Positions 1,740 through 9,495 of a DNA stretch of 9,495 nt are shown here, one piece after another (position 1 is the stretch's first letter; the number at the start of each line of letters is the position of its first letter). The position numbers and the translations under genes were made by a program. The notes under the pieces are model-generated. The model did not search any database and was not told the DNA's origin. It worked only from the letters and a program-made list of their open reading frames with translations. The DNA is taken from contig DBVK01000063.1 of assembly GCA_002308135.1 (NCBI GenBank), positions 1 to 9,495 on the forward strand. Direction: 5' to 3'. Origin of the DNA: Bacteroidales bacterium UBA1266 (lineage in GTDB: Bacteria > Bacteroidota > Bacteroidia > Bacteroidales > WCHB1-69).

Positions 1740-2429
1740 ATGGTCAGAAGCGCGCGTAACGCATTGGGCATAGCGGCAGACAAAAGCGCCAAGCTGAGTT
1801 CCGAATCCTTGTTCCTCTCCTGCTATGCTTTGCTCGGAATACAGCCAAAACAACCTGAAAAAGAATGGCTTGGACAATTGTTTTCAGCGTCTGGCTGGTG
1901 TTTCCGCAAAGCTGTCCTTCACCCTTTTGAGGCCAAGCTCACCCAACCGGCCTACCGTTTTCCGGTTTTTTACGCCCGCAGGCCCGGCAGACACCTGTCC
2001 CTATTGATCCAAAACACCGGAGAAAACGGAGGGAGAGAGCTGCTGTCTTTTCAAAACAACGGTTTATACCGCATCAAACTAAACGCCAAAGTGCTGCCTA
2101 ACCAATTGGCGCTGTTCGCGGAAGAAGCGATTCCCACCATACAGCCCGATGAAGACAAGGTGAAGAACTACAATCCGGAAAACATACGCAGATGGAATGA
2201 AATCACGGCTTACCTGGAGGAGCACTCCGTTCCGCTACCTTCGTTCCGCTACCTGCTTCTTTTATCATATGAAACTTACGAGCAGGACGTTCCCCTGCTG
2301 AACCACCTGCACAAGGTGCCCGGACTGCAATACCGTTACATTGCCGGTGACAGCATAGGCAACGACCACCTGCTGTACCAGCTGCTGAGCTTTCAGAACG
2401 AGCTTATACAGCTTATTAATCCTCGCTAG
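1740..2429 (+). CDS. Unrecognised 229-residue protein downstream of the vWA gene
   Basis: The ATG at 1740 follows the vWA stop by 3 bp. No clear Shine-Dalgarno is present, which is normal for Bacteroidota. I do not recognise the family. There is no signal peptide or membrane segment, so it is probably cytoplasmic. The N-terminal half has a short hydrophobic helix-like stretch (LFLSCYALLGI, about 25-35), then a beta-rich part including RRPGRHLSLLIQNTG. The C-terminal half is mainly helical and Leu/Tyr-rich (ENIRRWNEITAYLEEH, FRYLLLLSYETYE, LLYQLLSFQNELIQLI). The tight spacing suggests co-expression with the vWA protein. The C-terminal 14 bp overlap the end of the convergent regulator gene. Codon and base composition resemble the neighbours. 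The reading frame is credible because of its length and operon position, but the function is unknown. Confidence 0.7.
   Translation: MVRSARNALGIAADKSAKLSSESLFLSCYALLGIQPKQPEKEWLGQLFSASGWCFRKAVLHPFEAKLTQPAYRFPVFYARRPGRHLSLLIQNTGENGGRELLSFQNNGLYRIKLNAKVLPNQLALFAEEAIPTIQPDEDKVKNYNPENIRRWNEITAYLEEHSVPLPSFRYLLLLSYETYEQDVPLLNHLHKVPGLQYRYIAGDSIGNDHLLYQLLSFQNELIQLINPR
2228..2254 (+). repeat. 13-bp direct repeat inside the unrecognised gene
   Basis: CGTTCCGCTACCT occurs at 2228-2240 and again at 2242-2254, one base apart (14-bp period). Because 14 is not a multiple of three, the two copies are read in different frames (SVPLP and SFRYL). Loss of one unit by slippage would shift the frame near codon 170. 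Confidence 0.8.
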
Positions 2430-3240
2430 GGTAAAACTCTTCAAACGTCCTGTCCGCGTAGAAAAAGACCACTTTTTTGATCTTTTTCGCCCCCTTGGCT
2501 GCGGCCGGAGCTGCAGGCTGCGCTTGCGTCACGGACGGAGCCGCTTCTATTACGGGAGCGGCAGGCTGCACTTGCGGAACCGGATCAGCTTGCTGCGGAA
2601 CCGCTGGAGCCACCGGAGCTGCAGGTACGGGATCCACTTGTTCCGCAACTGGGAATTGCACCACAGCCCCGCTTTGAGGCTGTGCGTTAAGCGTGACAGG
2701 CTCTGGATGTTGCTGCGGAACCACAGGCATGGTTTGTGACTGGGGCATAACCGTCGTATTCGTTGTCGTTGTCGTTGCCGGAGACGTTTGCGTTTGAGCT
2801 GCGGGAGCGGCTTGGAACTGCGCCCCCGTCACTTCCGAAGGCTGGGAAACGCTTGGTGTGGCCGTAACCACAGGGGCGGCCTGAGCTTGCCCCTCCCCGG
2901 CGGGAAGAGGGGAGGATGCGGGGGAAAGCGTCGATGCGGCCTCATCTTCCATGGAAAACAAGTCCGCCTGTATCTCCTCAGGAGCGGATTTTTTGAGCAT
3001 CTCCGGAGTCACGACCGTCAATTTCGCATTCTCGCGGTACATATCGCCTTCACCTTTCAAGAGCCAAAGGGGGTTTATTTCCGGAAATTTCAAAAGGGTT
3101 TTGGACACCACCACCTGACTGGATTTGTCCCTTCCGGTCATCAGGTGGGTGATACTGGGGCGGCCCACACCGATAAAATCTGCAAATTCCGCCTGTGTCA
3201 ATCCTTTTTCCGCCAATAATTGTTTTATGCGTTCCTTCAT
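2416..3240 (-). CDS. XRE-type helix-turn-helix regulator with long Pro/Ala/Gln-rich linker and conserved C-terminal tail
   Basis: The 274-residue product begins with an XRE/Cro-like helix-turn-helix at about residues 3-60: LTQAEFADFIGV (14-25) as helix 2 and RPSITHLMTGR (27-37) as the recognition helix. INPLWLLKGEGDMY (56-69) follows, a pattern known from Bacteroidota phage-repressor-like regulators. Residues about 101-248 are low-complexity Pro, Ala, Gln, Val and Thr with few charged residues, including a TTTTTNTT run and repeats of DPVP and QPAAP; this part is probably disordered. The last 26 residues are a distinct tail with a basic patch and an aromatic/acidic end (KKIKKVVFFYADRTFEEF, then YPSED). 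I infer a DNA-binding regulator, with the tail as an oligomerisation or partner-binding element. The ATG at 3240 is chosen because the helix-turn-helix begins directly after it. The gene is divergent from the kinase-rpoN-pcrA run and converges on the unrecognised gene, overlapping it by 14 bp. TTTACA sites just upstream suggest autoregulation. Confidence 0.85.
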   Translation of the reverse strand: MKERIKQLLAEKGLTQAEFADFIGVGRPSITHLMTGRDKSSQVVVSKTLLKFPEINPLWLLKGEGDMYRENAKLTVVTPEMLKKSAPEEIQADLFSMEDEAASTLSPASSPLPAGEGQAQAAPVVTATPSVSQPSEVTGAQFQAAPAAQTQTSPATTTTTNTTVMPQSQTMPVVPQQHPEPVTLNAQPQSGAVVQFPVAEQVDPVPAAPVAPAVPQQADPVPQVQPAAPVIEAAPSVTQAQPAAPAAAKGAKKIKKVVFFYADRTFEEFYPSED

Positions 3241-3278
3241 GCCTGGTTTACATTTTTTGGTTTACAATTTACTCGACG

Positions 3279-3286
3279 CAAAAGTA
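3279..3286 (-). promoter_or_regulatory. Bacteroidota-type -7 box for the helix-turn-helix gene
   Basis: On the minus strand the sequence is TACTTTTG, a perfect match to the TAnnTTTG -7 element known for Bacteroidota sigma factors. A TTTG that could serve as the -33 element lies at 3311-3314 (minus), 24 bp upstream, longer than the usual spacing of about 19-21 bp. Transcription would start about 30-35 bases before the ATG, placing the TTTACA sites at 3247 and 3261 in the start/leader region and those at 3336 and 3345 upstream, as expected for autorepression. Confidence 0.45.
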
Positions 3287-3520
3287 CTCCCTTTTCCAAT
3301 ACCCTCGTCACAAAAAATTACATTTTCATTGAAAATTTACATGATTTACATCCATTTATTCTGTAATTATTTATAGTTTTTCTTTAAATCATATTTACTA
3401 TTTTACTTATTTTTAATTATTTAACAAGTTCATTTTAATAGCTTGTAAATTAGCGTGTAAATTGATGCTTTAGGTTATAGTTCAACTTTATAACACATAA
3501 ATTAAATACTTGTTTTTCAG

Positions 3521-3532
3521 CTAATTAATTAG
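3521..3532. repeat. 12-bp perfect palindrome CTAATTAATTAG
   Basis: CTAATTAATTAG is identical to its reverse complement and lies in the most AT-rich part of the intergenic region. It is not part of the TGTAAA array. AT-rich DNA produces such palindromes fairly easily, so its function is uncertain. Confidence 0.5.
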
Positions 3533-3561
3533 TATATTTAATTATTTGCTACTTATCTGCG

Positions 3562-3587
3562 TGTAAATCCATGTAAATTTGTGTAAA
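3562..3587 (+). promoter_or_regulatory. Three TGTAAAT sites at exact 10-bp spacing
   Basis: TGTAAAT begins at 3562, 3572 and 3582, so three copies lie on the same face of the helix, one turn apart. This fits cooperative binding of a regulator. The middle copy overlaps a perfect TAnnTTTG box at 3574-3581. Confidence 0.55.
3574..3581 (+). promoter_or_regulatory. Possible -7 box (TAAATTTG) facing the kinase-rpoN-pcrA run
   Basis: TAAATTTG matches the TAnnTTTG consensus exactly. A TTTG at 3545-3548 is the nearest candidate -33 element, but the 25-bp spacing is too long, and the leader would be about 250 bases. The match may simply arise from the TGTAAATTTG repeat sequence in which it is embedded, so this is weak. 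Confidence 0.25.
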
Positions 3588-3591
3588 TTTC

Positions 3592-3608
3592 TTTTGTAAA
3601 TTACAAAA
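3592..3608. repeat. Inverted repeat with 8-bp perfect arms (TTTTGTAA-A-TTACAAAA)
   Basis: TTTTGTAA (3592-3599) and TTACAAAA (3601-3608) are perfect reverse complements around a single A. The structure includes the TGTAAA site at 3595 and looks like a dyad operator. It is A/T-rich, with no GC stem and no T-run that would suggest a terminator. Confidence 0.6.
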
Positions 3609-3690
3609 ATTTGCGCAATTTACATCTCTCATTCTCATGCGCTGTCGTGTAAATTGTAAATTTTCACAATGTAAACTCTGTCCTGCGGGC

Positions 3691-3702
3691 TGTAAATTTA
3701 CA
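3691..3702. repeat. 12-bp perfect palindrome TGTAAATTTACA
   Basis: Two array hexamers, TGTAAA (3691-3696) and TTTACA (3697-3702), abut head to head and form a perfect palindrome. This is the most symmetrical site of the array and a good candidate for the full dyad operator of a dimeric helix-turn-helix protein. Confidence 0.6.
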
Positions 3703-3815
3703 TCCGGAAAATGGATACCCCCTCCCCTTTTTCCGCTATTGGAAGGCTATTTGAATAATGTAAAAAATTTGCAAAGAATTCTGTTTTTTGCATATTTTTT
3801 CGACCAAACAGCCGT

Positions 3816-3821
3816 TATAAT
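3816..3821 (+). promoter_or_regulatory. Possible TATAAT-like element close to the kinase start
   Basis: TATAAT lies 16 bp before the ATG at 3838, and a TTTG at 3787-3790 lies 25 bp upstream of it. Neither spacing nor sequence matches the Bacteroidota consensus well, and the leader would be very short. Listed only because some promoter for the downstream run must lie in this region. Confidence 0.15.
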
Positions 3822-3837
3822 ATAAAACAATGTACCT

Positions 3838-4707
3838 ATGATTTTAGCAGCAGACAGTGGCTCAACATCCACCAACTGGGCGTTGATATCCACAAAGGGA
3901 CTTGAAAAACAACTAGATACTAGCGGAATCAATCCTTACTATATGCAGGGGGACGAGATAGGCCAACGCCTGCAGGAGGAATTGCTTCCCCTGCTCTCCA
4001 AGGAGGAACGCGCAAACATAGACCAGATTTATTTTTATGGGTCCGGTTGCTCCACGCCATCCAAGCAGGAACTGATGAAAGAGAAACTGCAACTCATATC
4101 CCCGAATGCGTCCGTTTTTCCAAGCCATGACGTACTGGCGTCCGCCAGAGCCTGCTGTGGGCGAGGGAAAGGCATCGCCTGTATCCTCGGAACTGGCTCT
4201 AACGCATGTGTTTACGATGGAAAAAACGTTGTAAAAAACGCCATCTCCCTGGGCTATCTTTTGGGCGATGAGGGCAGCGGCGTGCATATTGGCAAACGCT
4301 TCCTGACCCTATACCTGAAAAACAAGGTCTCCCCTTCCCTCAAACAGGCGGTGGACACACATTTCAACTTGTCATTCGAAGCTATTCTCAACGGAATATA
4401 CCAAGGGGAGAAACCCAACCGTTTCATTGCCGGCTTCGCGCACTATATTTTGGATCACGCCATGGAATTTCCCGAACTGGAAGACATTGTGCGCACCTCC
4501 TTCCGGGAATTCATACAGGAATACATCCGCCCCTTCCCGGAAGCTGAAGACTATCCGCTTGGTTTTGTGGGTTCTGTGGCTTTCCTTCTGCAAAACCTGC
4601 TGCGCGATGAGGTGCGCAAAGCGGGCTATACCATGGGCAGCATTATCCGCTACCCAATAGAAGGCCTTATCGACTATCACCGGCAGCAATTGCTGGAAAC
4701 CAAGTAA
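3838..4707 (+). CDS. BadF/BadG-type ATPase, N-acetylglucosamine-kinase-like sugar kinase
   Basis: The 289-residue cytoplasmic protein has the ASKHA (actin/hexokinase/Hsp70) nucleotide-binding fold. The phosphate-1 loop is DSGSTSTNW (6-14), the phosphate-2 loop ILGTGSN (116-122), and GYLLGDEGSG (139-148) is the motif typical of BadF/NagK-like kinases. GFVGSVAFLL (242-251) is the adenosine-binding segment. Asp98 in SHDVLASARA is in the position of the catalytic base of N-acetylglucosamine kinases. The length is typical of the Bacteroidota members of this family. The likely reaction is ATP-dependent phosphorylation of an amino sugar such as GlcNAc, perhaps from cell-wall or glycan salvage, but substrate cannot be read from sequence. 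The ATG is chosen because the first beta strand (MILAADSG) begins at once, as in relatives. It is the first gene of a run, with rpoN 10 bp downstream. Confidence 0.85.
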   Translation: MILAADSGSTSTNWALISTKGLEKQLDTSGINPYYMQGDEIGQRLQEELLPLLSKEERANIDQIYFYGSGCSTPSKQELMKEKLQLISPNASVFPSHDVLASARACCGRGKGIACILGTGSNACVYDGKNVVKNAISLGYLLGDEGSGVHIGKRFLTLYLKNKVSPSLKQAVDTHFNLSFEAILNGIYQGEKPNRFIAGFAHYILDHAMEFPELEDIVRTSFREFIQEYIRPFPEAEDYPLGFVGSVAFLLQNLLRDEVRKAGYTMGSIIRYPIEGLIDYHRQQLLETK

Positions 4708-4717
4708 CTGCAGCGCC

Positions 4718-6226
4718 ATGGCATCACTGAAACAGGAACAGCAACTGAAACTGGGGCAGAAACTTTCGCCCAAGCAGATATTATTCACAAGATTGCTGGA
4801 AGTGCCCAGCTTCCAGCTGGAACAGCGCATACAACAGGAACTGGTGGATAATCCCGCATTGGAAATCGCTGATTACGAAGAGGATGAAAAGAGCCCGGAT
4901 GAGAACGTGAGGGATTCCGCAGAGGCGGAAGAGGGCTATGGCGAAGGCTCGGACGAGGCCACCGACACCGATACGTACGACTATGGCGAGGACGAAATGA
5001 TGGAGTATTTCTCCGATGACGAAAACAATAGGGACGCCTTGTACCGCAACATTTCCAACTACTCCCCCGACGATGAGGAAAGGGAAATCCCTATAGTGTC
5101 CAAAGCGAGTTTCCTGGAGTCCCTCAAACAGCAGCTGGGCATGTTCCAATTCAATGAAAACGACCAGCAGATAGCGGAATACATTCTGGGTAACATAGAC
5201 GAAAGCGGCTACCTGCAGCGCAATGCCAAGGAAATATCCAACGATCTGCTGTTCAATATGAACCTTCGTGTTCCCCAGGAAAAAATACAGGAACTCATTC
5301 AGCAGCTTATCCACCATCTCGAACCGGCGGGCGTAGGCGCCTCCGATTTGCAGGAATGCCTGCTGCTGCAATTGGAGCGATTGGAGGACAAAGCGGAGAT
5401 TCAATTGGCCAGACGCATTATTTCCAAGGCTTTTCCGGAATTCATCAAAAAGAATTACGACAAAATCCGGCAGAAAATGCACTGCAGTCCGGAAGAATTC
5501 CAAGCGGCTTTGCGCATACTGGTCCGCCTGGACCCCAAACCGGGAAACACCGGTGACGACCTGTCGCGGGAATCGGCCTACATCGCCCCTGATTTCATTG
5601 TCTATTACAACGACAAAACCGATGAAATGGAGTTGAGCCTGCCCAAATACAACATTCCCGAACTCTGCGTCCGCAAGGCGTATAAAAACCTTTTCAACGA
5701 AATACGCGAAAAGAAAAACATCAGCAAAGACGAGCGGAAAACCGCCTTGGACTTTGTCAAACAGAAGGTTACCGCAGCGGAATGGTTCATAGAGTCACTG
5801 ACCCAACGGGAGCACACGCTCTACAAAACCATGGAAAGCATCATCGAATACCAGCGCAGCTTTTTCCAAACCGGGGACGAGACAACCATTAAGCCTATGA
5901 TTCTGAAAAACATTGCAGAACGCATCGGCATGAACATTTCCACCGTTTCCCGCATCACCAGCAGCAAATACGTATTGACGCCCTACGGCATGTATCCCTT
6001 GAAGTTCTTTTTCTCCGAATCCATGGGAAAGGAAGGCGAGGAAGTTTCCTCACGGGAAATCAAACGCATTATCCAGAACACCATTCAGGAAGAGGACAAA
6101 ACGCATCCCCTCACCGATGACGACCTGCGGGGGATTCTGGAAAAACAAGGGTACAGCATTGCCCGGCGCACCGTCGCCAAATATAGAGAACAATTGGGAT
6201 TCGTCCCTTCACGCATGCGAAAATAA
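4718..6226 (+). CDS. rpoN: RNA polymerase sigma-54 factor
   Basis: The 502-residue protein shows the full sigma-54 layout. Region I (1-50) is Gln/Leu-rich (LKLGQKLSPKQILFTRLLEVPS, interrupted) and interacts with activator ATPases. Region II (about 52-125) is strongly acidic. The core-binding domain follows (ADYILGN-like IAEYILGNIDESGYL, then HHLEPAGVGASDLQECLLLQL). The DNA-binding part has the helix-turn-helix IAERIGMNISTVSRITSSKY followed by YGMYPLKFFFSES, and the RpoN box ARRTVAKYRE at 482-491, which contacts the -24 element. Sigma-54 directs core polymerase to -24/-12 (GG/GC) promoters and needs an AAA+ activator; none is encoded here. Nothing is missing compared with the family. It sits 10 bp after the kinase gene and 15 bp before pcrA, so the three are likely co-transcribed. 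Confidence 0.97.
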   Translation: MASLKQEQQLKLGQKLSPKQILFTRLLEVPSFQLEQRIQQELVDNPALEIADYEEDEKSPDENVRDSAEAEEGYGEGSDEATDTDTYDYGEDEMMEYFSDDENNRDALYRNISNYSPDDEEREIPIVSKASFLESLKQQLGMFQFNENDQQIAEYILGNIDESGYLQRNAKEISNDLLFNMNLRVPQEKIQELIQQLIHHLEPAGVGASDLQECLLLQLERLEDKAEIQLARRIISKAFPEFIKKNYDKIRQKMHCSPEEFQAALRILVRLDPKPGNTGDDLSRESAYIAPDFIVYYNDKTDEMELSLPKYNIPELCVRKAYKNLFNEIREKKNISKDERKTALDFVKQKVTAAEWFIESLTQREHTLYKTMESIIEYQRSFFQTGDETTIKPMILKNIAERIGMNISTVSRITSSKYVLTPYGMYPLKFFFSESMGKEGEEVSSREIKRIIQNTIQEEDKTHPLTDDDLRGILEKQGYSIARRTVAKYREQLGFVPSRMRK

Positions 6227-6241: not shown

Positions 6242-8593
6242 GTGAATCTAACCGAAGGATTGAACGAAGCACAGGCGCAAGCCGTACAACATATTGACGG
6301 TCCCATGATGGTCATAGCGGGAGCCGGTTCCGGAAAAACAAGGGTGCTGACCCACCGTATAGCGTACCTGATCGCCCACGGGGTCTCCCCTTTCCATATT
6401 TTAGCGCTGACCTTCACAAACAAAGCGGCTGCGGAAATGCGGGACCGCATCGCCCAACTGCTGGGTGACAGCAACAGCCGCAACGTATGGATGGGCACCT
6501 TTCACTCCATTTTCAGCAAGATCCTGCATATTGAATCCTCCTACCTGGGATTCTCGTCCAAATTCACCATCTATGATACCGACGACGCCAAGAACCTGCT
6601 GAAAAGCATCGTAAAGGAAATGGGGCTGGACGAAAAGGTATACCGTCCCAACATGCTGCTTTCAACGATTTCCAATGCCAAATCCAACCTGATTTCTCCG
6701 GAGGAATACAATAACAACCACCTGATTCAGCAGGAAAACGCCCGAAAACGCGTGCCTGATATGGGAGATATCTACACCCGGTACAACAACCGCCTGCGCC
6801 GGGCCGATGCCATGGACTTTGACGACCTTTTGTTCAATATGTTCCTGCTGCTGAGGGATTTTCCGGAAATGCTGTACAAATACCAGCACAAATTCCAATA
6901 CATTCTGGTAGACGAGTACCAGGACACCAACTACGTCCAATACCAGATTGTACGCAAACTGGCGGCATTGAACGAAAACATCTGCGTGGTGGGCGACGAT
7001 GCGCAAAGCATTTATGCCTTCCGGGGGGCAAACATACAGAATATCCTGGATTTCAAGGAGGACTATCCGGATTACGAGCTGTTCAAGCTGGAGCAGAACT
7101 ACCGTTCCACCCAAAACATCCTTGCTGCGGCCAACGATGTGATACGACACAACAACAAACAAATCCCCAAAGTCATTTGGACGGACAACCAGCAGGGTGA
7201 CAAAATCAAAGTCTTCGAGACGGACGATGAACGCACGGAAGCCAAAGCCGTAGCGGACGAAATCCTGCGCAAGAAAAAGGAACTCGGATTGCAGAACAAC
7301 GATTTCGCCATACTGTACCGCACCAACGCCCAATCCCGTCCCTTGGAGGAAGCCTTTCATCTTAAAGGCCTGCCCTATCGTATATACGGCGGCATGTCCT
7401 TTTACAAACGCAAGGAAATCAAAGACGTGCTGGCGTATTACCGCCTGACCACCAACCCCAACGATGACGAGTCCCTGCGGCGCATCATCAACTACCCGCA
7501 ACGCGGCATTGGCGCTTCCACCATGGAGAAAGTCATTGCCGCCGCCATGCAGCACGGGGTTTCCCTGTGGGAATGCATCTGCCATCCGGAGCAGTACGCA
7601 TTGCAGCTTACATCCTCCACGCTGAAAAAGCTCTACGATTTCACCCAGAAAATACTGTCCTACCAGGCCCTGCTTCCCACCCAAAACGCCTTTGTGCTGG
7701 GGAAACACATTGCCGACACTTCCGGCATCACGCAAGAGCTGCGTGCCATGGAAGAGGAGCCGGAACGCTACGAGAACCTGGGGGAATTGTTCAACGCCAT
7801 GAAAGCCTTTGTGGAAAAGGAACCGGAAAACGCCATAGACATGGAGACGGGCGAAGACATGAGCAGTGTTTTCCCTTCGCTGGACGTGTTTTTGAATGAT
7901 GTTTCCCTGCTGTCCAACACAGACGAGGACGAAAAGGAGGAGAGCGACAAGATCAAGCTGATGACCATTCACGCCGCCAAAGGCCTGGAGTTCCCCTATG
8001 TGTTTGTCATTGGACTGGAAGATAACATTTTCCCTTCCTACATGATTTCCTCCCCTACGGAAATGGAAGAGGAACGCCGCTTGTTCTATGTGGCCATCAC
8101 ACGCGCGAAACGCTTTCTCAGCCTTTCTTACGCACACGCCCGCTTCATGTTCGGCAACACCAGCTACAACAGCCCCAGCCAGTTCCTGCAGGAGATATCA
8201 GACAAATACAAGGTGACAGAGCAGGTGTTCTCCACACAAGCGCCCCGGATGAAAACAGGATTCGCCTCGGATAACTGTTTCTATGACCAATCCCCACGCA
8301 CCTTTTCAAGCAAACCTAAGACCTATACGGCACCCCTGAACAAAACGCCACGACCCTCCCTTGCTTCCGCCAGCCCTCAAAAGGCGGCCGAAACACCCCA
8401 AAAACTTGGCGATATGCTGACAGATACAGCGCAAATGCACGTTGGCATGCGGGTTTTCCATGGGAAATTCGGATGCGGAACCTTAGAGGAGATTGTGGAG
8501 AAAGGGAGCAACGGCAAAGTGATCATCACCTTTGACCAATTCGGGCGCAAAACCATGCTGGTTGCCTTCGCCAAGCTGAAACAGGCGCTTTAG
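6242..8593 (+). CDS. pcrA: PcrA/UvrD-type superfamily 1A DNA helicase
   Basis: This 783-residue cytoplasmic helicase unwinds DNA 3' to 5' in nucleotide-excision and mismatch repair and clears stalled complexes. The SF1A motifs are all present: Q motif LNEAQAQAV (7-15), Walker A GAGSGKT (27-33), Ia ALTFTNKAAAEM (55-66), Ib GTFHS (85-89), II VDEYQDTN (223-230), III GDDAQSIYAFRGA (251-263), IV QNYRST (285-290), V TIHAAKGLEF (575-584) and VI AITRAKR (618-624). A Ser/Pro/Lys-rich linker (about 655-730) leads to a C-terminal Tudor-like module, GMRVFHGKFGCGTLEEI and on to the end (735-783), which in PcrA binds RNA polymerase. The length is as expected. The start is GTG, supported by an AGGAGG 7 bp upstream. 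UvrD and PcrA cannot be told apart by name here, but the C-terminal module favours PcrA. It ends 6 bp from the convergent MltF-like gene. Confidence 0.95.
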   Translation: MNLTEGLNEAQAQAVQHIDGPMMVIAGAGSGKTRVLTHRIAYLIAHGVSPFHILALTFTNKAAAEMRDRIAQLLGDSNSRNVWMGTFHSIFSKILHIESSYLGFSSKFTIYDTDDAKNLLKSIVKEMGLDEKVYRPNMLLSTISNAKSNLISPEEYNNNHLIQQENARKRVPDMGDIYTRYNNRLRRADAMDFDDLLFNMFLLLRDFPEMLYKYQHKFQYILVDEYQDTNYVQYQIVRKLAALNENICVVGDDAQSIYAFRGANIQNILDFKEDYPDYELFKLEQNYRSTQNILAAANDVIRHNNKQIPKVIWTDNQQGDKIKVFETDDERTEAKAVADEILRKKKELGLQNNDFAILYRTNAQSRPLEEAFHLKGLPYRIYGGMSFYKRKEIKDVLAYYRLTTNPNDDESLRRIINYPQRGIGASTMEKVIAAAMQHGVSLWECICHPEQYALQLTSSTLKKLYDFTQKILSYQALLPTQNAFVLGKHIADTSGITQELRAMEEEPERYENLGELFNAMKAFVEKEPENAIDMETGEDMSSVFPSLDVFLNDVSLLSNTDEDEKEESDKIKLMTIHAAKGLEFPYVFVIGLEDNIFPSYMISSPTEMEEERRLFYVAITRAKRFLSLSYAHARFMFGNTSYNSPSQFLQEISDKYKVTEQVFSTQAPRMKTGFASDNCFYDQSPRTFSSKPKTYTAPLNKTPRPSLASASPQKAAETPQKLGDMLTDTAQMHVGMRVFHGKFGCGTLEEIVEKGSNGKVIITFDQFGRKTMLVAFAKLKQAL

Positions 8594-8599
8594 GCCACG

Positions 8600-9495
8600 C
8601 TAATTGATTTCTATCAGACTGTCCCTATGGATGATGGCCTTATAGGTATCGTTCCTGTCAAGTATGGCCTGCACATAGCGTATCGTATGCCGGGCTCCAT
8701 GGTAACGGCCGTGGCGAATGGCCGGATGATGGGCATACTTCCATTCAGCCAACATCAGTAAGGCTTCCCTGATTCCGTTTGGTTCCCAGACGCTGGCGTT
8801 AAGCCCTTCCGCTTTGGCCAGGGCAATGGCGTCCACGAGGTGGCCGCTACCGGCATTGTAGGCGGCTATCACCATAGGCACAAGTTGTGCCGAGTCACAT
8901 ACCCCTTCCTTGGCTATCTTCTGCCGCAAAAAATGCAGGTAACGGCAACCGCCATTAATCTGCTGTTCCGGAGAGCTGCCGAAGCTCACCCCGAAGCGGG
9001 ATGCGGTTACTGGCGCGAGCTGCATCAACCCGTAGGTGCCCCCTTTCCCCACGATGTCATGGAGGAACCTGGACTCCTGGTACACCAAAGCGGCCAGCAG
9101 CTGCCAGTCAATGCCATAAACCGCCCCGTATTTCTTAAAATACGCGTCGTAACGGGAAATGGCCCCAAAAGGTTGGGAGTTCAGCGTATAGGCAATACGT
9201 GTGTGTTCCCGGGAAGTAGGGTCGGTGTATTTTTTGCATAGGCGGGCCCATTCTTTGGTCTTGGAATAGTCCTGAAGAAAGGTATTAATCGCTGCCAGCA
9301 TGGAATCGTTGCCTTTACGCACGGCCCAGCACAAGGGCACCCGCTTCGCCAAGGTGTCCACGACCTTGACATGGGGATACTGGTAAGCGGTGGCATGCCA
9401 ATAGCGTTCGAAATACAGGGTGGATTCCAAGCATCCGTCCTCTACGGCTTCCATCAGCTGGTAGATGGAGGCGCGGAAAAAGCGCCAGCGCAGAG
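8600..9495 (-). CDS. MltF-like lytic murein transglycosylase, N-terminus outside the window
   Basis: The frame is open to the right edge, so the start and N-terminal signal are missing; about 298 residues are visible, ending at a TAG at 8600-8602. An ATG at 9452-9454 is internal, because upstream codons continue the domain (RWRFFRASIYQL). The first 70 or so residues are the end of a periplasmic solute-binding-like (SBP_bac_3) domain: EAVEDGCLEST, then WAVRKGNDSMLAAINTFL. The C-terminal part is an SLT lysozyme-like domain with the catalytic Glu in AALVYQESRF (codon 9074-9076), then GTYGLMQLAP and VIAAYNAGSGHLVDA. This two-domain layout is that of MltF, which cleaves peptidoglycan between MurNAc and GlcNAc to give 1,6-anhydro ends. 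It acts in the periplasm, probably membrane-anchored. The gene is convergent with pcrA. Confidence 0.9.
   Translation of the reverse strand, partial: LRWRFFRASIYQLMEAVEDGCLESTLYFERYWHATAYQYPHVKVVDTLAKRVPLCWAVRKGNDSMLAAINTFLQDYSKTKEWARLCKKYTDPTSREHTRIAYTLNSQPFGAISRYDAYFKKYGAVYGIDWQLLAALVYQESRFLHDIVGKGGTYGLMQLAPVTASRFGVSFGSSPEQQINGGCRYLHFLRQKIAKEGVCDSAQLVPMVIAAYNAGSGHLVDAIALAKAEGLNASVWEPNGIREALLMLAEWKYAHHPAIRHGRYHGARHTIRYVQAILDRNDTYKAIIHRDSLIEIN

Follow-up and report, generated by a model that had tools for sequence, protein, structure and literature searches.

Introduction

Repressors of the phage 434 type have a two-fold operator architecture. SinR of Bacillus subtilis is an XRE-type helix-turn-helix (HTH) protein of the same fold. 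As far as the available sections of PMC3163267 describe it, SinR is a tetramer that prefers an inverted pair of its 7-bp motif, GTTCTYT, and this half-site occurs in promoters in multiple copies and varied orientations. VanUG of Enterococcus is an XRE autoregulator that binds repeated sequences across its own promoter (PMC4405338, available sections). BldC of Streptomyces binds direct repeats with MerR-like domains arranged head to tail, and it can coat a promoter (PMC5859096, available sections).

The DNA analyzed here is a stretch of 9495 bases from Bacteroidales bacterium UBA1266 (the window), in which a dense array of TGTAAA sites separates an XRE-type regulator gene from a divergent sugar kinase gene. 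The regulator shares its fold with SinR and the 434-type repressors. Its relatives carry a putative two-fold operator similar in length to that of the 434-type repressors, whereas the array-bearing clade lacks the two-fold spacing. A one-way array with an 11-bp period is not among the features of SinR in the sections of PMC3163267 that were available. The likeness to BldC lies in a small HTH regulator, direct repeats, a promoter-covering filament, and a variable site length, all described for BldC in the available sections of PMC5859096 and proposed here for the array. BldC has a MerR-like winged HTH, 9-bp repeats, and stoichiometries of 2 and 4 subunits (same sections), whereas the array regulator, whose binding is predicted, has an XRE-type HTH with a long linker, a C-terminal peptide that is conserved, an 11-bp period, and 7–17 sites. 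Because the fold appears different, the array regulator may work like BldC but is not classified as a BldC. BldC nevertheless appears to be the closest mechanism found in print. A literature search, with most subscription journals outside its reach, found no paper on the regulator or its operator. Judging from sequence comparisons, it is probable that the array is an autoregulatory operator, and that the regulator lineage has moved from a dimer on a palindrome to head-to-tail binding on direct repeats.

Results

Site Array in the Window

The features of the window are summarized in Table 1. The 597-bp gap between the regulator and the kinase contains 17 TGTAAA/TTTACA hexamers at 3247–3764. They are located at 3444, 3456, 3562, 3572, 3582, 3595, 3648, 3655, 3670, 3691, and 3759 on the plus strand, and at 3247, 3261, 3336, 3345, 3619, and 3697 on the minus strand. 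The rest of the window has three further copies (396, 4230, and 7401). The original prediction, made from this sequence, had reported 17 exact hexamers in about 520 bp against roughly one expected; all the positions match, and the expectation is 1.5. It had also reported that all four regulator-side sites read towards the regulator, that 11 of the 13 sites at 3444–3764 read towards the kinase, and that 3351–3443 is free of exact sites. These observations hold, and the mirror arrangement is present in the window.

Dinucleotide-shuffled controls, which had been proposed as a check, gave counts far under the observed one. In 2000 shuffles of 3241–3837, the mean was 1.46 and the maximum was 7. For the whole window, 20 sites compare with a mean of 4.4 and a maximum of 11 (200 shuffles). 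Because TGTAAA had been picked after the fact, every hexamer was scored against its own expectation. TGTAAA is at the top of all hexamers with a score of 11.4, and 1000 shuffles peak at 5.7. In raw counts, the commonest word of any kind reached up to 24 copies in 1000 shuffles, and the words with at least 15 copies were poly-A. The repeat unit exceeds the hexamer; TGTAAAT has 13 copies in the window array against 0.5 expected. Across 13 loci the unit is TGTAAATT, with T at the two following positions in 72% and 66% of the 148 sites used for the logo, out of 158 array sites, the remainder being too close to an end.

Table 1. Features of the window around the TGTAAA array.
Feature	Coordinates	Strand	Remarks
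XRE-type regulator, 274 aa	2416..3240	-	HTH domain about 1-70, long Pro/Ala/Gln linker, conserved C-terminal peptide KKIKKVVFFYADRTFEEFYP
Putative regulator promoter, -7 box TAnnTTTG then C (TACTTTTGC)	3278..3286	-	Box and downstream GTAAA in 13/13 loci
Regulator-side cluster	3247..3350	-	4 exact sites (3247, 3261, 3336, 3345), all towards regulator
Degenerate AGTAAAT at putative start site, within regulator-side cluster	3267-3273	-	Reads towards regulator
Middle sites 3444 and 3456	3444..3461	+	3456 is the positional counterpart of the -219/-221 site in L001, L002, L003
Kinase-side cluster	3562..3764	+	11 exact sites, 9/11 towards kinase; majority opposite in each of 12 other loci
TGTAAATTTACA	3691..3702	.	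Sole perfect inward-facing pair of the intergenic region
BadF/NagK-type sugar kinase	3838..4707	+	Divergent from regulator; PG1100 (1zbs) match 9e-66, solved GlcNAc/MurNAc kinases also matched
rpoN (sigma-54)	4718..6226	+	10 bp past kinase; Pfam, synteny; neighbor outside the conserved unit
pcrA/uvrD helicase	6242..8593	+	15 bp past rpoN; Pfam, synteny; neighbor outside the conserved unit

The other genes of the window are ordinary neighbors. Positions 2–343 look by eye like the end of recJ, and 321–1736 encodes a von Willebrand A-domain protein. The protein encoded at 8600–9493 is a lytic-transglycosylase protein, nearest to MltF yet below the cut-off of the MltF model. A structured RNA was considered and rejected, as no Rfam family reached its gathering threshold in the window.

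Conservation of the Array with the Regulator

Genome contigs were scanned with the regulator alignment, and 80 loci of 142 relatives were kept. Twelve related loci carry 7–15 exact sites each in the 466–624 bp before the regulator, which is the motif conservation in orthologous regions that the original prediction had asked to be checked. The regulators of the array loci are 35–56% identical to that of L003. The DNA between the sites turns over among the array loci, and the spacing is variable and non-tandem. The genomes with arrays belong to unclassified Bacteroidales and are available as metagenome bins or assemblies; all 12 are assigned to the "family of G003", a label that may be a catch-all. 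Two loci with short upstream sequences, L004 (182 bp, 4 sites) and L073 (126 bp, 3 sites), were left out of the counts of arrays and relatives; their regulators have the array-type residues described below.

A divergent kinase is present in 11 of the 12 array loci. Among the best 30 kinase loci of 51 genomes with a match, the 11 with a divergent regulator have 7–15 sites, the 17 without the regulator have 0–1, and two lie at a contig edge. In genome G008, the kinase is on a separate contig with one site, while the regulator (L009) still has 15 sites in 600 bp, 14 of them in the first 500 bp. L009 has no evident divergent gene; the gap on that strand has only 82- and 90-codon open frames. The nearest long upstream open frame is acetyltransferase-like by eye and has the same direction as the regulator. 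As the kinase is absent there, the L009 region was ended at 558 bp. An order-wide search for the regulator found matches in 256 of 295 genomes, and of 30 loci from this search, 29 are outside G003 and none had the kinase in the DNA examined.

TGTAAA sites were also observed upstream of two other kinase genes, where the contig ends: L251 of G419 (7 sites in 212 bp) and L255 of G429 (10 sites in 239 bp). No regulator was found in these two assemblies at E ≤ 1e-20.

The original prediction tied the array to sigma-54 and PcrA. This tie is weak. Outside the window, rpoN adjoins the array in four of the 12 loci (L001, L002, L003, and L006), which are those with the most similar kinases (56–79%), and pcrA is beside it in three; the L001 contig ends in rpoN. 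Neither gene was found in the neighboring DNA examined for the remaining seven kinase-bearing loci. The rpoN-pcrA link is not a property of the system. In the window, an effect on rpoN-pcrA is possible because the 10- and 15-bp gaps may mean one kinase-rpoN-pcrA operon. The divergent kinase may likewise be affected, but any such effect, including that on rpoN-pcrA in the window, would be secondary.

Orientation, Phasing, and Promoter

The 12 other loci have 141 sites, and 108 of them point to the regulator. Among the sites nearest to the regulator (up to about 160 bp away), the proportion is 42 of 47, window included. Because the 12 other loci are mostly one-way, kinase-side sites included, the mirror symmetry of the window is a local oddity, and it was rejected as a functional feature. 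The earlier proposal that the array serves both directions is not supported: the opposed orientations are seen only in the window, and the L009 array persists next to no evident divergent gene. A 17-nt inverted repeat, 94% complementary (3261–3277 with 3644–3660), flanks most of the window array. It is possibly a trace of an inversion that would relate to the reversed kinase-side cluster.

Same-strand spacings up to 130 bp have a best period of 11.0 bp (score 0.40, 274 pairs from 13 loci), and 300 jittered control sets peak at 0.21. A subset of 10 loci scored 0.43 versus 0.20 at most in the controls. Over the 13 loci, the direct repeats are therefore in helical register. The window alone shows no significant phasing, with 39 of 300 jittered controls equally good. 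Exact direct pairs in the array clade number 8, 5, 9, and 15 at gaps of 3, 4, 5, and 6, and 0–3 at gaps of 0, 1, 2, and 7. The inward pair TGTAAATTTACA is an enriched geometry alongside the direct repeats. It has nine exact copies in the 13 array loci, and eight of its 13 occurrences in 12 genomes are at the array locus.

In all 13 loci, a TAnnTTTGC box lies 33–76 nt before the regulator start. We take TAnnTTTG to be the Bacteroidota -7 box. Transcription usually starts a few bases downstream of the -7 box. The GTAAA nearest downstream starts 7, 9, or 10 nt past TTTG in every locus. A GTAAA site would therefore sit on the transcription start, a layout that fits autorepression. A similar box is found within 75 nt of the kinase start in eight of the 12 kinase loci (window included); it is absent from the matches listed for the window, L001, L002, and L003.

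Twin single sites about 103 bp apart, at 200–225 and 96–122 bp before the regulator, are observed in L005, L008, L010, L020, and L038. Several of them are preceded by an AT-rich element near ATAAAGTAnTACTTTAAATATTT; in the window, the arrangement is degenerate. AAAGTAnTACTTT in the middle region was considered as a suggestive pair of twins about 103 bp apart and rejected as too degenerate.

Palindrome in the Relatives of the Regulator

Hexamers were ranked against shuffles in the 250 bp before 66 non-array relatives, and 258 upstream regions of other genes from the same loci served as controls. The relatives include Hymenobacter, Cytophaga, and Flavobacterium. They are not independent, as 27 of the 66 are from Hymenobacteraceae; the others are from Cytophagaceae, Leadbetterellaceae, Flavobacteriaceae, Marinilabiliaceae, and other Bacteroidales. 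The top eight hexamers (CAAATG, GTAAAC, TGTAAA, TTACAA, AAATGT, TACAAA, ATGTAA, and ACAAAT) are all pieces of GTTTACAAATGTAAAC. TGTAAA is third of 2080 hexamers in the relatives versus rank 226 in the controls (68 seen, 49 expected). Its rank is 2 in the 27 Hymenobacteraceae and 6 in the other 39.

With up to two mismatches allowed, TTTACA-N2-TGTAAA occurs 130 times before the relatives, and other opposed arrangements occur 0–24 times and direct pairs 25–45 times. Because all spacings were compared within one set of regions, the excess of the palindrome is not attributable to base composition. At least one such palindrome precedes 51 of the 66 relatives versus 10 of the 258 controls, and none was found before the other 15 relatives. 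As GC content is 0.48 in the controls and 0.30 in the relatives, GC-matched counts were added; in regions with GC ≤0.30, the palindrome is present in 27 of 39 relatives versus 4 of 38 controls. Exact copies of TTTACA-N2-TGTAAA number six in 12 genomes of relatives, one of them at the relative's own promoter (L078).

The partner half-site is visible in the relatives, where A, C, and A at positions -5, -4, and -3 carry 0.26, 1.21, and 0.49 bits. In the array sites, positions -8 to -3 carry 0.00–0.06 bits, and the information of the partner half-site is absent. Opposed pairs at spacing 2 (15 in the array clade) are not above those at other spacings (13–33). One TTTACA-N2-TGTAAA with up to two mismatches is found in five of 12 array regions. 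A putative two-fold symmetric operator is thus carried by 51 of the 66 relatives and is not a feature of the array clade. The two-fold site is probably the ancestral form.

The Regulator Protein

The regulator has an HTH_3 domain above the curated cut-off, which places it in the XRE family. The Pfam search found HTH_3 and no MerR model, and the structures among the matches listed are of the 434/SinR type. None of five group members scanned reached the cut-off of any NCBIfam model.

Residues 40, 42, 43, and 46 fully separate the 13 array regulators from 74 other regulators. Because the array regulators can form one lineage, the 13 cases of this residue swap may trace back to a single event. In the recognition helix, R27 is present in 10 of 13 array regulators and H32 in 12 of 13, and both are present in all 74 others. 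A structural model of the regulator aligns to SinR 1–66 on residues 2–67. The alpha3-alpha4 loops of the SinR(1-69) crystal dimer meet at residues 40–44; this dyad contact is a crystal contact, because SinR(1-69) is monomeric in solution (PMC3163267, available sections).

The C-terminal peptide KKIxKIVFFYxDxTFEEYYP (window 2416–2490) lies past the long disordered linker and is nearly invariant in the array clade. It is also observed in single relatives from Hymenobacter, Cytophaga, and Flavobacteriaceae. The pattern is absent from 36 of the sequences checked and has no Pfam match.

Genome-Wide Distribution of Paired Sites

Paired direct sites are found only at the array locus in G001 (2 of 2), G010 (3 of 3), and G011 (2 of 2). 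In G003, three of five are at the locus, and the other two are in an open-frame repeat. In G002, one of nine is at the locus, and eight are in such repeats. G008 has five of 12 at the locus and seven in other places, G012 has one elsewhere, and G005 has none. This distribution of paired sites suggests a self-contained circuit rather than a global regulator. A global regulon was considered and rejected. The off-locus triple-phased matches in G002, G003, and G004 are 12-bp tandem repeats in open frames, and three more are in G015, a genome outside the array clade.

A triple-array search of 393 genomes of the order found matches in 81 genomes, many of which are tandem repeats. No relative of the regulator was encoded within about 1.5 kb on each side of the 11 triple-array loci checked. 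Phased TGTAAA triples in other genomes include L160 (G365), which has no relative of the regulator, G196:C29, G092:C22, and G288:C31.

Some repeats mimic TGTAAA arrays in pattern scans. L083, L087, and L097 contain 12-bp in-frame tandem repeats, TGTAAATGnnnn. The frames of L083 and L087 read (VNDx)n, and by eye the encoded proteins appear Fic-like and transcription-regulator-like. In L089 and L096, a transposase-like frame has a (QSHL)n variant. L135 at about 7470–7800 (G012:C5 47.47–47.80 kb) contains an approximately 41-bp tandem repeat with the inverted repeat TTGCGGA...TCCGCAA. TTTACA is present in most of its units, and it lies about 3 kb from the array; it looks like a distinct repeat family.

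Discussion

The original prediction of a large operator-like array is well supported at the level of sequence. There is also strong evidence for its suggestion that the array belongs to the adjacent HTH protein: the array tracks the regulator and not the kinase, and the half-site precedes relatives of the regulator across the phylum. It is very likely that the adjacent protein binds the array and autoregulates. Head-to-tail binding appears to be the better reading of the geometry. Each TGTAAATT would be a half-site for a single HTH domain. Subunits would load side by side, mostly in one orientation and at a density close to one per 11-bp helical turn, and would spread over the regulator's own promoter, including the start site. 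With enough protein, cooperative loading of this kind would cause a sharp, steep shut-off of the regulator gene. Because relatives across the phylum have the same half-site as a two-fold operator, the geometry of the regulator seems to have changed in the array lineage. This lineage would have retained the half-site, along with the main residues of the recognition helix, while the partner half-site disappeared and the dyad contact changed.

It is less probable, but a serious alternative, that the regulator is still a symmetric dimer or tetramer, held together by the C-terminal peptide or the linker, which spans half-sites in any orientation, with the array as a high-avidity operator. SinR is a close structural match and recognizes its motif singly, in tandem, or inverted, with 10-fold better binding to the inverted pair (PMC3163267, available sections). 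The near invariance of KIVFFYxDxTFEEYYP in the array clade and the over-representation of TGTAAATTTACA would also fit such an oligomer. However, the array sites lack the two-fold spacing that the relatives show, they are mostly in one orientation with a one-turn register, and the substitutions sit in the dyad segment. These three observations count against such an oligomer.

Adjacency alone is no proof of binding, and the sites in G419 and G429 adjoin a kinase in assemblies where no regulator was found. A different protein, such as a factor controlling the kinase, is nevertheless an improbable binder, given that the array follows the regulator rather than the kinase, that the half-site also precedes relatives with other neighbors, and that the sites overlap the regulator promoter.

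It is very improbable that the array is an origin of replication or a centromere-like partition site, although it is AT-rich, is made of direct repeats, and several genomes have a single dense array each. On the contigs used for GC skew, which are only 40–153 kb, the skew in G010 is -0.005 to -0.034 (35–50 kb) up to the array and then +0.10 to +0.13, and in G012 a single bin of -0.011 is followed by +0.144. On a wider scale, however, both flanks have positive skew in G003, G010 (0–35 kb), and G012 (25–45 kb), and the skew does not switch across the window. No exact DnaA box is present in the 13 regions, two of which have one with one mismatch. A ParA/ParM-type domain is absent from the seven window proteins scanned, against a centromere. 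Chance or a tandem-duplication artefact of AT-rich DNA has a negligible probability: the region is 72% AT and poly-A words score higher counts in shuffles, but the composition-normalized score of TGTAAA is above all 1000 shuffles, and the array is kept among regulators as diverged as 35–56% identity to that of L003 despite turnover between the sites and non-tandem spacing.

The autoregulatory array thus remains the favored reading. A more specific scenario is tentative, and we hold it as slightly doubtful: a widespread Bacteroidota autorepressor would, in one lineage, have given up symmetric dimer binding to a 14-bp palindrome and become a one-way polymer on a direct-repeat array of 450 bp, through clustered substitutions at the dyad contact and with the half-site kept. 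If this is true, an XRE/434-fold protein would act as a DNA-guided filament, and the family would hold a natural record of a change in operator architecture. Related proteins with a common half-site and common recognition residues seem to use both architectures, and residues 40, 42, 43, and 46 are candidates for the switch. The evolution of operator geometry would therefore be testable by the exchange of a short segment. TTTACA-N2-TGTAAA is a candidate operator for a widespread group of Bacteroidota regulators.
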